Shown: positions 56,153-62,907 of the stretch, in pieces | Layout: each line of letters starts with the position of its first letter | Numbering within the stretch: the first letter of the stretch is position 1 | Origin: Synechococcales cyanobacterium C42_A2020_086 | Lineage (GTDB): Bacteria; Cyanobacteriota; Cyanobacteriia; Elainellales; Elainellaceae | Assembly: GCA_015272325.1 (NCBI GenBank) | Contig: JACYLU010000020.1 | Coordinates: 62,001 to 126,000, forward strand | Direction of reading: 5' to 3' | Length of the DNA: 64,000 nt | The notes under the pieces: model-generated | The model's input: the letters and a program-made list of their open reading frames with translations, nothing else | Database searches by the model: none | Told to the model about the DNA's origin: nothing | Translations under genes and position numbers: made by a program

Positions 56153-56800
56153 TTAGGACACAGCCGCCGTCACAGCACCGCGCAGGGCCGCAATCCGCTC
56201 TTGTACTCCGCCTGTATTCAGCCGATAGCTGAGAGGATGGGCAATCAGGCGAGCCGTACTTTCAAAGATTTGCTCGATTTCAATTAAGTTGTTTTCCTTG
56301 AGGGTGCGCCCAGTAGCAACTAGATCGACAATCGCTTCTGACATGCCCGTGATCGGTCCCAACTCCACTGAGCCATAGAGCGGCACAATCTCAACCGGCA
56401 AATCCAGTTCTTTAAAGTACTCGGTGGCGCAGTTAACAAACTTGGAGGCAACTCGGCAGTGAGGCGGTAACTCTAACGATGAGCGGTAGGGACTGCTCGC
56501 CTTGACTGCTACCGACATGCGGCAGCGACCAAACCCTAAATCTAGCAGATGAGCAACCTGCGGTCGCTTTTCTCGGAGAATGTCGTAGCCTACAATCCCA
56601 AGCTGCGCCTGCCCATACTCGACATACACCGGGACATCGTTGTTGCGTACCAGCAGAGCCTTGGCACTATGGGTAGTGTCCCAAATCTCTAGCTGTCGAT
56701 TGGATGACTCCAAGAAGGCGCTGAAGTCTAGGCCAATGGTTTGCAGCAACCGGACGCTGTCGGCTAGCAATCCACCTTTAGGTAGGGCAACAGTAATCAT
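56153..56800 (-). CDS. hisG: ATP phosphoribosyltransferase, short form (HisG-S)
   Basis: 215 residues, catalysing the first step of histidine synthesis. [19 protein letters not shown] at the start, [34 protein letters not shown] and the PRPP loop [20 protein letters not shown] are family hallmarks. The C-terminal regulatory ACT-like domain of the long form is absent, so the enzyme should require HisZ as in other cyanobacteria. It is monocistronic apart from the possible 44-residue gene. Confidence 0.96.
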
Positions 56801-58574: not shown

Positions 58575-59198
58575 ATGGAAACGTTTGCCTATCTTCAGGC
58601 TGCTCAGGACTATGAAACTCCTGAGAGTAAAGAGCTGAAGCTTTCTGGCAAGGCAGCGGCTACTGTTCTGAGTGTGGCAGGAGCTGCTTTGGCCGTTGGA
58701 GTAACCGATGTAGCGCCCGCTCAAGCTCATGACTACTATGGTGGCTATGACTGCGGCGTCAGCGTTCAGAAGTGCTTCATTCCGGTGAGCACCCGCTGCT
58801 TCGATCCCTGCTATGGGTACAGCGGCTACGGCGTTAGCTACGACTACGGGTATGACTACGGCTACAAAGATTACGGCTACGACTACAGCTACGATTACGG
58901 CTACAAAGACTATGGCTACTATGAGCCAGTCAGCTACTACCCCGACTACTACTACGGGTACGACAAAGGCTGTGGCGTCAGCTATGGAGGATGCGGCGGC
59001 GGGTACATCGGCGTCTCATCGCACTTCAGCACGTATGACATCCAGGTTGCGTTGAATCATGCAGGGTTCCCGGTGATCGTTGATGGCGTCTTCGGTCCGG
59101 AAACCCACTCAGCTGTCATCGCATTCCAGATCTCATGTGGCTTAGTGCCCGATGGAATCGTCGGTCCAGCCACCGCATCGGCTTTGGGTCTGATCTAG
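58575..59198 (+). CDS. Secreted Tyr/Gly-rich protein with peptidoglycan-binding domain
   Basis: 207 residues. The leader METFAYLQAAQDYETPESKE is followed by a hydrophobic signal region ending at APAQA (about residue 54). The mature protein has a Tyr/Asp/Gly repeat zone (about 55-135, units such as YDYGYKDYGY) with several cysteines, then the linker YIGVSSHFS and a PG_binding_1 domain (about 150-207: VALNHAGFPVIVDGVFGP, AVIAFQISCGLVPDGIVGP). A strong GAGGAGAAG ribosome site precedes the ATG. First of three related genes; probable role is wall-associated structural protein. Confidence 0.8.
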   Translation: METFAYLQAAQDYETPESKELKLSGKAAATVLSVAGAALAVGVTDVAPAQAHDYYGGYDCGVSVQKCFIPVSTRCFDPCYGYSGYGVSYDYGYDYGYKDYGYDYSYDYGYKDYGYYEPVSYYPDYYYGYDKGCGVSYGGCGGGYIGVSSHFSTYDIQVALNHAGFPVIVDGVFGPETHSAVIAFQISCGLVPDGIVGPATASALGLI

Positions 59199-59823
59199 GC
59201 TGCTATTTCAGCAGATCGAACGGCAGTTTGTCAAGAGTGCCGTCATCAACCGTTTGCTAGTGCCTCTGTGGGAGGAGTAAGCTGCTTCTGCAGAGGCTAT
59301 TTAGGATTTTGCTTCGTTGGCTAGAAAACTAATAAGTTTCAGTTAACAAATTCAATAACGCTCGGGAGCGAATGTCGCAGATGGCATCCAGCATTGTTCG
59401 GATGGCAGCGAATGTTTTCGCTCCTTTTTTCGCTCCTGATTTAACCATAAATCTAACTTATTATTGAGATTGATATATGGCGATTCCCCGTTAAAGTTTC
59501 TTGAAATGGAGTATTTTGTTCAAATTAATCGCAAATTGAAATGTTTATTTATCCTTCCACATTTGGCGTCTCAAGAATAAAAGGAATTTACTGAACTCTA
59601 TATCTAGTAGAAGGATTAATTTAACATCTTCTCAATTGACCTTTGAAAGAGCAAAATTGGCTCTCTGACTGGATTGGGGATCTACTAATTTTTTTGCATC
59701 GGTGTAAAAATGGGGTATCAGAAGTCAATTTTTTACATTCAAGATTGGCTTCTTGCGAACAACTGATTCGAATAACCGATTGCATTTCCATTCAATTCAT
59801 CATTCACTTGAGGAGAATTAACC
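59199..59823. other. 625-base spacer between first and second METxAY genes
   Basis: Contains the terminator-like structure at 59365-59430 and an AT-rich promoter region before 59824. No gene recognised. Confidence 0.5.
59365..59430 (+). terminator. Large hairpin with T-run after the 58575 gene
   Basis: GGAGCGAA (59365-59372) pairs with TTCGCTCC (59417-59424), enclosing an inner near-perfect hairpin TGGCATCC/GGATGGCA, and is followed by TTTTTT (59425-59430). Confidence 0.65.
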
Positions 59824-60069
59824 ATGGAAACTCTTGCTTACACCGAACTCAGCCAAGACTATGCTACAGAGCAGCCCGAAGTCACATTTTCCGCTAAGAA
59901 GGCAGCGACTTTCTTAGGTGTGGCCGCAACTCTTTCAGTAGTTGGACTAGTGGATGCAGCACCCGCATTAGCGACCTACTGCTGCCGTCCGCGTCCTATC
60001 GTGATTCGTCCTTGCTGTCGTCCGCGTCCTATCGTGGTTCGCCCTTGCTGCCGTCCAATCTACTACTAA
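59824..60069 (+). CDS. Short Cys/Pro/Arg-repeat secreted paralogue
   Basis: 81 residues. Leader METLAYTELSQDYATEQPE and signal region ending LVDAAPALA are clearly related to the flanking genes. The mature part is only about 30 residues: the motif CCRPRPIV repeated twice and CCRPIYY at the end. There is no peptidoglycan-binding domain, and nothing in the 136 bases after the stop restores one. ATG follows TTGAGGAGAATTAACC. Cysteine pairs could bind metal or crosslink. Confidence 0.72.
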   Translation: METLAYTELSQDYATEQPEVTFSAKKAATFLGVAATLSVVGLVDAAPALATYCCRPRPIVIRPCCRPRPIVVRPCCRPIYY

Positions 60070-60205
60070 ATATCAAGTCCAACTCGTCGCCGGTAATGCT
60101 GTGGGGTGGGAACGAACCTCCGCGAAAGGTCCCTCCCACCCTCACCACTATCGATGTTATTCAAACGGATTTGATGGTACGCATGATTCTTTAGGAGAAG
60201 CAGTC

Positions 60206-60787
60206 ATGGAAACAGTTGCATATGTGCAGCTCACTCAGGAGTATGAACATCCTGAGCTAAAAGAGTTGTCTTTTTCCTCGAAAACAGCTACCAGTTTCCT
60301 AGGAGTAGCCGGCACTCTGTCGGTACTAGGATTAGTTGATGCAGCACCCGCTGTGGCTCACTATTACGGTGGGTATCACGGAGGATGCTGCCGTCCGGTG
60401 TATTACAAGCCAATTTACTACCGGCCCTGCTGCCGTCCGGTGTATTATCAGCCGATTTACTATTCGAGCCATTATTACCCGGACTATTACTACAGCAAGC
60501 CGGACTATCACCATTACAAGCACCACAAGCCCAAGGATCACTATATTGAGGTGAGTAGTCACTATCCTCACAAGCATGATCCTGTTCCTCAGCGTCCTGC
60601 ACTCGATCCCGACCTTGTTGCTGCGTTGCAGCAGGCGCTTTTGGAACGGGGATATGATCCAGGTCCGATCGATGGAATCTACGGTCCATTGACGACCGAT
60701 GCGGTGACGCGCTTCCAAATTGAGGCCGGCATCCAAGTGGATGGCATTGCAGGCCCGCAAACGCTAGGCTTGCTGGGCTTAGCTTAA
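60206..60787 (+). CDS. Secreted Cys/Tyr/His-rich protein with peptidoglycan-binding domain
   Basis: 193 residues from ATG 60206 with AGGAG upstream; the open frame extends to 60101 but lacks the METxAY start there. Leader METVAYVQLTQEYEHPELKE, signal region ending LVDAAPAVA, then repeats CCRPVYYKPIYYRP and CCRPVYYQPIYY, a His/Lys-rich stretch (DYHHYKHHKPKDHY), the linker YIEVSSHYP shared with the first gene, and a C-terminal PG_binding_1 domain (AALQQALLERGYDPGPIDGI, TRFQIEAGIQVDGIAGP). Third of the cluster; combines the repeat of the second gene with the domain of the first. Confidence 0.8.
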   Translation: METVAYVQLTQEYEHPELKELSFSSKTATSFLGVAGTLSVLGLVDAAPAVAHYYGGYHGGCCRPVYYKPIYYRPCCRPVYYQPIYYSSHYYPDYYYSKPDYHHYKHHKPKDHYIEVSSHYPHKHDPVPQRPALDPDLVAALQQALLERGYDPGPIDGIYGPLTTDAVTRFQIEAGIQVDGIAGPQTLGLLGLA

Positions 60788-60820: not shown

Positions 60821-60852
60821 AAGGGTTGTTTGATCCAAGGGTTGTTTGATCC
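60821..60852. repeat. Perfect 16-base tandem duplication
   Basis: AAGGGTTGTTTGATCC at 60821-60836 is repeated exactly at 60837-60852, just after the third METxAY gene. The preceding AAGCCCAT is also duplicated. Confidence 0.85.
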
Positions 60853-61094: not shown

Positions 61095-61142
61095 CAGGGT
61101 ACCCTGTCGGAGTTGAGGAGTTGTTAACCAGTACAATTGTAC
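61095..61142. promoter_or_regulatory. Two perfect 12-base palindromes upstream of the HAD gene
   Basis: CAGGGTACCCTG (61095-61106) and GTACAATTGTAC (61131-61142) lie within 70 bases of the HAD start, with an 8-base palindrome TTCGCGAA at 61081-61088. Operator function is inferred from clustering and position. The rest of the 373-base spacer 60788-61160 shows nothing else. Confidence 0.35.
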
Positions 61143-61160
61143 CATAGCTATTCCGAGTTT

Positions 61161-61943
61161 ATGTCTTTTTTGCACGCCATTATTTTTGATGTGGATGGTA
61201 CCCTGGCAGATACTGAGCGCGACGGGCATCGGGTGGCGTTTAATCGAGCGTTTGCTGCTGCCGGCTTGCCGTGGCACTGGACGGTTGACCTCTATGGGAC
61301 CCTGCTCGAAGTTGCAGGCGGCAAAGAGCGCATTCAATTTTACCTCGACTGCTTCCAGCCAGAAGCGCAGCCTCCTGTGTCGGACAGGGAATTGCCGCAG
61401 TGGATTGCCGCTCTGCATCGCCGCAAAACCACTCACTACAAAGAATTGCTCAGAGAGGGGAATATTCCGCTGCGGCCAGGGGTGCGCCGCTTGATCACCA
61501 CTGCTCGCGACGAAGGCATTCGGCTGGCTATTGCCACGACAAGTGCCTTGGATAACGTGCTGGCTCTCCTGGAAACTGCGCTCGATCCGGATAGCCCTAA
61601 CTGGTTTGAGGTGATTGCTGCGGGTGATGTAGTTCCTGCTAAAAAGCCTGCCCCCGATATCTACCACTATGTGCTGCAAGCAATGCAGATTGAGCCACAG
61701 CATTGTCTAGTGATTGAAGATTCGCAGCATGGGTTGCAGGCTGCTAGCCAAGCGAACTTAATGACGCTCGTCACCCTCAACGACTACACACGCCACCACA
61801 ATTTTGCAGGAGCAGCGTTGGTGATCGATCATCTAGGGGAGCCGGATCTGCCGTTTCGGGTGCTTCAGGGAACCCAACCAGGGCAGAACTGGGTCGATCT
61901 GATGCTGGCCAACCAACTGTTGAAATCCCTGCACCATTTGTGA
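61161..61943 (+). CDS. HAD-IA family phosphatase, CbbY-like
   Basis: 260 residues from ATG 61161. HAD motif I FDVDGTLADTE (nucleophile Asp10), motif II in LAIATTSAL, motif III Lys in AKKPAPDIY and motif IV VIEDSQHGLQAA are all visible, with a helical cap between. This subfamily (CbbY/GpH-type) dephosphorylates sugar phosphates such as phosphoglycolate or xylulose bisphosphate; in cyanobacteria CbbY removes a Rubisco inhibitor. Substrate here is inferred only. Confidence 0.88.
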   Translation: MSFLHAIIFDVDGTLADTERDGHRVAFNRAFAAAGLPWHWTVDLYGTLLEVAGGKERIQFYLDCFQPEAQPPVSDRELPQWIAALHRRKTTHYKELLREGNIPLRPGVRRLITTARDEGIRLAIATTSALDNVLALLETALDPDSPNWFEVIAAGDVVPAKKPAPDIYHYVLQAMQIEPQHCLVIEDSQHGLQAASQANLMTLVTLNDYTRHHNFAGAALVIDHLGEPDLPFRVLQGTQPGQNWVDLMLANQLLKSLHHL

Positions 61944-62016: not shown

Positions 62017-62907
62017 GTGAAACGCTCTTCTCTGATCTCCCTTCTTGTCGTCTTTGGGCTTTGCAGTACAACACAACCTGCTCAAGGGCAAGCTCTCATT
62101 CCCCATGTGTTGCAGATCGAGAGTGAGCAGTTGGAGCAACAGGGCATGATTCTCGCCCAAGAAGCCGCGCAGCTCGCTCAGTTTCAGCAGTATTCGCCAG
62201 CGCTAGTGCGTGCCCAACTTGCTTCTCAGCTTCTGCCTAATAATGCGCAGGTGTGGGCGCTGCTCGGCAGTTTGTATCTGCAAACTAGACAATACAGTGA
62301 GGCGATTGAGGTGTTGCTGCGGGCACGCGAGCTAGACCAGAACAATGCCCCCGTTTTGTTTGCCTTGGGAACAGCCTATTTCCAAGAGGCAAAGTATGAT
62401 TCGGCTGTTCAATACCTCCGGGCAGGGCTGCGGATCAATCCCGAAACTCCGGGTGCTCTCTTTGATCTGGGCAATGCTTACTATCGGCTGAATCGCTATG
62501 AGGAGGCGATCGAGCAGTACGAAAAAGCCGTCAAACTCGACGAGAAATTCTGGCCCGCCGTCAACAATATTGGGCTGGTGCGCTACGAGCAGGGAGAGAT
62601 TGAAGCAGCTCTGGACTACTGGCGGCAGGCAGTCGAGATTGATGCCAACCAAGCCGAACCGCAGCTTGCACTGGCCGTCGGACTCTATGCCCAAGGGGAA
62701 ACCGAGGAAGCGCTACGGCTGGGGGAAGCAGCCCTGCGGCTCGACGCTCGCTATGCCGATCTGGAATTTCTGGAGCAAAACCTCTGGGGCAGTCAGTTGC
62801 TGACGCAAGCCAGGGAGTTTTTGGCGCTGCCTCAAATTCGCGAAACGGTGGCGCAGCAAACTCGGGTAGCACCAACTCCAGGCGCACCGCCAGCCACACC
62901 CCAGTAG
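62017..62907 (+). CDS. Secreted TPR-repeat protein
   Basis: 296 residues from a GTG start directly before the signal peptide (cleavage near AQGQA). Six or so tetratricopeptide repeats span about 40-255 (for example AQVWALLGSLYLQTRQYSEA, ALFDLGNAYYRLNRYEEAIE, AVNNIGLVRYEQGEIEAALD), followed by a Pro/Thr-rich tail. TPRs mediate protein assembly; partner unknown. It follows the HAD gene by 73 bases on the same strand. Confidence 0.85.
   Translation: MKRSSLISLLVVFGLCSTTQPAQGQALIPHVLQIESEQLEQQGMILAQEAAQLAQFQQYSPALVRAQLASQLLPNNAQVWALLGSLYLQTRQYSEAIEVLLRARELDQNNAPVLFALGTAYFQEAKYDSAVQYLRAGLRINPETPGALFDLGNAYYRLNRYEEAIEQYEKAVKLDEKFWPAVNNIGLVRYEQGEIEAALDYWRQAVEIDANQAEPQLALAVGLYAQGETEEALRLGEAALRLDARYADLEFLEQNLWGSQLLTQAREFLALPQIRETVAQQTRVAPTPGAPPATPQ

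Follow-up and report, generated by a model that had tools for sequence, protein, structure and literature searches.

The three tandem genes in the window, which is the whole analysed stretch of 64,000 nucleotides, begin with a common leader. This leader is probably a cleavable Sec-type signal with an acidic N-terminal extension, carried by wall proteins of HetR-bearing cyanobacteria, and the extension may be read in the cytoplasm for sorting. An earlier sequence-only reading had proposed the common leader, and it was found with 50–51 residues in all three open reading frames (ORFs). Three of three leaders contain the elements described there: MET-x-AY, then Q-[DE]-Y, a run of acidic residues and a hydrophobic core with D-x-APA-x-A at its end, where the first x is V or A. 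About 25 polar residues had been counted ahead of the core, and the best hydrophobic window indeed begins after 29–30 residues in the window genes. The n-region was rightly called unusually long. Moreover it is acidic, with no lysine or arginine at residues 2–14 in 72 of 76 carriers. These carriers come from 154 leader ORFs, no two of them alike over the first 60 residues; 142 were closed and free of X, and 76 remained at 65% identity. The features of the locus are listed in Table 1.

Table 1. Features of the three-gene locus (positions in the window).
Feature	Position	Strand	Basis
hisG, upstream neighbour, retained in G011–G013	56153..56800	-	Pfam HisG, E 5.6e-52
Gene 1: leader, Tyr/Gly/Cys-rich repeats, PG_binding_1	58575..59198	+	ORF, 207 aa; Pfam
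Leader of gene 1, 51 residues ending in ...APAQA, with the conserved motif at 58575-58616	58575..58727	+	Cleavage site inferred from AxA
Gene 1 PG_binding_1, residues 155-204	59037..59186	+	Pfam
Gene 2: leader, 31-residue CCRPRPIV repeat tail, without wall domain	59824..60069	+	ORF, 81 aa; Pfam
Leader of gene 2, 50 residues ending in ...APALA, with the motif at 59824-59865	59824..59973	+	Cleavage site inferred
Gene 3: leader, CCRP/Tyr/His repeats, PG_binding_1	60206..60787	+	ORF, 193 aa from METVAY ATG; Pfam
Leader of gene 3, 51 residues ending in ...APAVA, with the motif at 60206-60247	60206..60358	+	Cleavage site inferred
Gene 3 PG_binding_1, residues 136-190	60611..60775	+	Pfam
HAD-type hydrolase gene, downstream neighbour, retained in G011–G013	61137..61943	+	Pfam, E 2.2e-26
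TPR protein gene, second downstream neighbour, retained in G011–G013	62017..62907	+	Pfam TPR

An AGGAGA stretch lies upstream of the ATG in genes 1, 2 and 3, and gene 3 has an additional in-frame GTG at 60101, upstream of its METVAY ATG. The Pfam scan (cut-off 23 bits) gave PG_binding_1 in gene 1 (E 9.7e-14, 51.7 bits) and gene 3 (E 3e-18, 66.2 bits), no family in gene 2 and no SH3 in the three window proteins. The mature parts were therefore correctly described before as two wall-binding proteins and a repeat tail alone, and the YI-x-VSSH linker claimed for genes 1 and 3 was found in both. Tyr/Gly-coding repeats of gene 1 are located at 58837–58919. The mature part of gene 2 contains a 33-bp DNA repeat at 59980–60056, and that of gene 3 opens with CCRP repeats like those in the gene 2 tail. 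Over about 51 residues, leader pairs are 51–63% identical in protein and 63–67% in DNA, so the three genes are not very recent copies. The closest leader pair is that of genes 2 and 3 (32 of 51 residues identical). This and the CCRP repeats in both make it plausible that gene 2 is a copy of gene 3 from an old duplication, one without the wall domain. A perfect 16-bp tandem repeat lies downstream of gene 3 at 60821–60852. A hairpin resembling a terminator lies between gene 1 and gene 2, at 59407–59422; such hairpins occur near the shuffled expectation.

In three genomes of the same family (G011, G012 and G013), two or three leader genes are found between the same neighbours, which were paired with the window genes by eye. 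The orthologues of genes 1 and 3 retain Tyr/Cys-rich repeats. G013 has an extra leader gene (L241:3790-4725, minus strand), flanked by the orthologue of gene 3 and the HAD gene, whose tail is a different one of CCTP/QPI repeats. The locus thus retains the leader while the tails turn over. The conserved position, together with the recurrence of the leader over the phylum, places the three-gene pattern beyond chance. A fourth leader gene of the same genome (L004) has a short Tyr/Arg-rich tail.

The Pfam annotation showed a wall-binding domain in 71 of the 76 non-redundant carriers (68 with PG_binding_1, three with SH3 only). SH3_3 was found in 12, SPOR in five and a beta-propeller match in two. 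In the remaining five, gene 2 among them, no Pfam family was matched and the tails are rich in Tyr/Gly/Cys/Arg. Two ORFs, L072:1501-3195 and L079:337-2028, look like fusions of the leader and PG-binding domains to a YncE/lactonase-type beta-propeller. The earlier statement that MExLAY starts occur on other cyanobacterial wall-binding proteins proved correct among the collected leader ORFs; MENLAY accounts for 50 of the 142 carriers, many of them reached via a DNA pattern. A wall-binding protein does not carry the leader as a matter of course, since among the 14 PG_binding_1 open frames in the genome of the window the leader profile matches only genes 1 and 3 and not the other 12. The idea of a tag family is supported in one part, an export leader shared by mature parts of various kinds, most of them wall-binding. 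It is less well supported for the repeats, as repeat-only tails make up just five of 76. Given these counts, what the carriers have in common is binding to the wall rather than to metal. Still, the Cys/Tyr/Gly/Arg repeats could be metal-binding or crosslinking material brought to the wall, which would add to the export reading without replacing it. They occur in all three window genes and, as noted, persist in the orthologues of genes 1 and 3, and may give an elastic, crosslinked or metal-binding material. Such a role is atypical of the leader class with its few repeat tails lacking a wall domain, and we regard it as possible, at clearly less than even chance.

The profile built from the three window leaders had matches in 22 of the 36 genomes of the order. 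With 30 leaders it matched in 58 of 386 phylum genomes. With 49 leaders, and up to 16 candidates scored per genome, it matched in 68 of 386 genomes and 43 of 143 genera, three of the 68 genomes being dropped later. G045, G114 and G193, where the hydrophobic half alone matches, were not counted as leaders (compare L217 and L219 in the shuffle test). Reading of the N-termini brought in G121 (E 4.7e-4) and also G152 (E 0.075) as leader genomes, the partial match of G117 (E 0.09) was not added, and the borderline leader of G245 (METLAIATAYTAYE) was counted. The degenerate DNA pattern for ME-x-LAYLHLA gave 91 matches over 84,980 species, and 80 of 80 among the matches listed are cyanobacterial. The named genera in these matches are known as filamentous. 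The polar segment is conserved far beyond three duplicates, as the profile search, the DNA pattern and the identities and dN/dS values given below agree; conservation confined to the three would have refuted the earlier reading. In G419 a leader match (C1:589984-590184) is broken by two TAG stops. A leader family MEAIGYLHLASVYE in L235–L239 has starts that drifted in some genomes, and an AAA ATPase-like ORF, so assigned by appearance, is nearby in five of five stretches. In the titles and abstract beginnings of the open-licence literature, no description of the leader as a family was found.

The same set of 386 genomes includes 80 with HetR (PF03574). The raw overlap was 64 genomes with both, four with the leader only, 16 with HetR only and 302 with neither. 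Three of the four leader-only genomes have a match limited to the hydrophobic half, and the fourth, G263, has a real leader with PG_binding_1. In the final tally, which ignores ancestry and in which HetR-negative genomes were searched less deeply (18 of 306 fully rescored, G263 included, against 16 of 16 HetR-only genomes), the leader is present in 66 of 80 HetR genomes and one of 306 without HetR. By genus the numbers are 41 of 47 with HetR and one of 96 without, according to our own tally of the tables. The profile search, with all candidates scored in the 16 HetR-only genomes, gave no leader in 14 of 80 HetR genomes. The leader motif was absent in both weak partial matches listed from the rescored HetR-negative genomes. 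The HetR-bearing carriers are presumably mostly filamentous cyanobacteria. The gene hetR is described as widespread among filamentous species, and PatX is reported as coextensive with HetR in filamentous species (PMC12756182). The leader thus tracks that lineage or lifestyle, the two not being separable here. Two HetR matches are located in the genome of the window itself (G000:C20:293825 and G000:C37:337309).

The leader opens with METLAYLHLAxxYE, which is followed by a linker of variable sequence, in most cases a short basic stretch, then the hydrophobic core and an AxA site. The core begins after 27–59 residues in the 76 carriers. The mean net charge is –2.8 for residues 1–15 and +1.2 for the eight residues ahead of the core, where it is positive in 75%. 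The information per column is 0.7 to 4.1 bits for residues 2–14 and 0.2 to 1.5 bits for residues 15–26, with conservation at residues 1–6 inflated since the carriers were selected by a pattern there and a hydrophobicity cut. Among 24 near-one-type proteins found by profile, pairwise identity averages 77% for the motif, 45% for the linker, 70% for the part ahead of the core, 67% for the core itself and 60% for the mature protein. The dN/dS values from 16 independent pairs, all of whose loci came via the leader profile or tandem neighbours with DNA-pattern loci left out, are 0.092 for the motif, 0.241 for the rest of the n-region, 0.127 for the core and 0.188 for the mature part. The motif, which covers the first 14 residues, was lower in 1987 of 2000 bootstraps against the mature part, in all 2000 against the rest of the n-region and in 1654 against the core. 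The motif is clearly more constrained than the linker and the mature part, and not clearly more so than the core. An amphipathic helix was rejected for the motif; its hydrophobic moment was no higher than that of column permutations, and AF2 (alignment of eight rows, mean pLDDT 56) gave no helix there, folding in gene 3 only about residues 131–193, the wall domain.

The constraint bears on whether this is an ordinary signal peptide whose long n-region was inherited from one ancestral wall-binding protein, so that the polar residues would mark descent and have no sorting role. That most carriers have PG_binding_1 and are confined to related cyanobacteria fits such a history. However, drift would be expected of residues without use, and it is the motif that shows the lowest dN/dS among the four regions, with the highest in the linker that follows it. 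The leader is also found on SH3-only and repeat-only proteins, and those 12 PG_binding_1 ORFs in the same genome have no match to its profile. We therefore consider simple inheritance unlikely, at somewhere around one chance in five.

Published cleavage among the leader carriers, within the accessible text of the sources, is that of All1861 only. Its N-terminus was sequenced from an Anabaena cell surface fraction, giving a signal peptide of 64 residues that starts with MEFIAY and ends in ALA (PMC4103569). All1861 is SjcF1 with 269 aa (PMC12421839), which is consistent with a signal of 64 and a mature form of 205 residues (PMC4103569). The All1861 leader scored 18.9 bits against the 49-row profile, above 20000 of 20000 shuffles; taken by itself, its polar part is a weak match, as 65 of 20000 shuffles equal or exceed the score. 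Across the leader and mature start, All1861 shares 49% identity with L222 and 48% with L227, both absent from the profile and matched by it at 32.7 and 52.8 bits. SjcF1 binds peptidoglycan and interacts with SepJ, and in its mutant the nanopores are wider and calcein transfer is impaired. The same source also calls it anchored in the cytoplasmic membrane and models it so, which speaks against complete cleavage (PMC12096826). The N-terminus could accordingly be a cytoplasmic interaction peptide and the core an uncleaved transmembrane helix tethering the wall domain, and an exposed conserved peptide would account for the constraint. Against this, the mature N-terminus of All1861 was sequenced after ALA from the surface fraction (PMC4103569), and a strict AxA past the core is enriched, being present in 63 of 76 carriers, where shuffled sequences averaged 33 and never exceeded 44. 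A permissive AxA test gave 75 of 76 and is weak, since shuffles average 67. A membrane anchor is improbable on balance. A nucleotide-level element for translation or RNA control, suggested by the position of the block right at the 5' start of each gene, is very improbable, as the conserved residues show synonymous codon variation and the dS of the motif (0.56) is close to the value for the remaining n-region (0.51), even if the mature part has a higher one (0.78).

The genes all1861 and alr4984 are the two wall-binding genes listed as filament-only in Table 4 of PMC2821919, and alr4984 is under strong nitrogen regulation in published work. The candidate alr4984 was rejected as a leader protein; PG-binding genes convergent with susA, recognised by motif in four of 13 susA-side stretches, have different starts. 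In L252, L254, L258 and L263, Nostocaceae PG-binding genes of alr4984 type are convergent with sucrose synthase and have no leader. No susA was seen beside a MENLAYLHLA gene among the matches listed (14 of 42 loci). The neighbours of such genes, where flanks were covered, look CobN-like and sigma-factor-like. Two Nostocaceae genomes (L253 and L257) have long frames of simple peptide repeats, PITNSQFPIPNSQ and HPPRNSVHPPLILV, beside sucrose synthase.

A cleavable Sec-type signal with an acidic extension remains our preferred explanation. A long export signal on wall-binding proteins suggests a dedicated delivery tag. The METLAYLHLAxxYE extension would be read in the cytoplasm ahead of export, and this reading would set the site or timing of export, favouring the plasma membrane or septum over the thylakoid, by analogy with YSIRK leaders, which direct export to the septum (PMC12272431), and with the long signals of autotransporters (PMC2805444). 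Export by Sec and signal peptidase I cleavage at AxA would follow, presumably for all members. The released proteins would bind peptidoglycan, septal SjcF1 among them, and the window genes would be three wall proteins of the leader class with fast-changing repeat tails. In its boldest form, to which we give about a one-in-four chance, the extension would be a sorting code of multicellular cyanobacteria that leads wall-building proteins to plasma-membrane or septal export, away from thylakoid translocons, through a dedicated cytoplasmic reader.

The leader bears on how cyanobacteria sort exported proteins between the periplasm and the thylakoid lumen. In a 2025 proteomic study, the strongest sorting correlates are in the hydrophobic core, and the n-region is introduced as a positively charged segment averaging about five residues (PMC12341915). 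A conserved acidic n-region, almost exclusive to HetR genomes and carried by a protein of the septal junctions, offers a concrete peptide to mutate. If a cytoplasmic reader exists, the peptide METLAYLHLAQDYE could be used as bait for it in the cytosol. The leader profile could also retrieve candidate septum or sheath proteins now annotated by their wall-binding domain only.

Compared with known signals, the leader has the features of Sec and signal peptidase I substrates, with a core in 76 of 76 carriers (a selection criterion) and the strict AxA given above. The short basic n-region of usual Sec signals is not found, the leader n-region being atypical and acidic. A twin arginine of the Tat type within the first 60 residues, a lipobox cysteine, a YSIRK-type motif and LPxTG were each found in none of the 76 carriers. 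No YSIRK family is among the NCBIfam matches of the three window proteins, and no ESPR family among the matches listed for the 76 carriers (25 of 28 Pfam families). Proteins with PG_binding_1 (PF01471) share the domain of genes 1 and 3, mostly without the leader in this genome. The staphylococcal YSIRK-GxxS signal (PMC12272431) is similar as a conserved motif inside the cleaved Sec signal of wall proteins with septal export. It differs in that METLAY carriers have neither YSIRK nor LPxTG, and their attachment to the wall would be via PG-binding domains. The ESPR of autotransporters is likewise an extra N-terminal domain on an exceptionally long Sec signal (PMC2805444). METLAY carriers are, in contrast to ESPR proteins, small wall proteins with an acidic motif. 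SjcF1 has a leader of the METLAY class, with its MEFIAY start, long polar n-region, KSSAW ahead of the core, AxA and wall-binding mature part. However, mature SjcF1 consists of SH3 and two PG-binding stretches with no Tyr/Cys repeats reported, while the window genes have no SH3. Judged from their sequences, the window proteins have only the leader class in common with SjcF1 and do not belong to the SjcF1 family.
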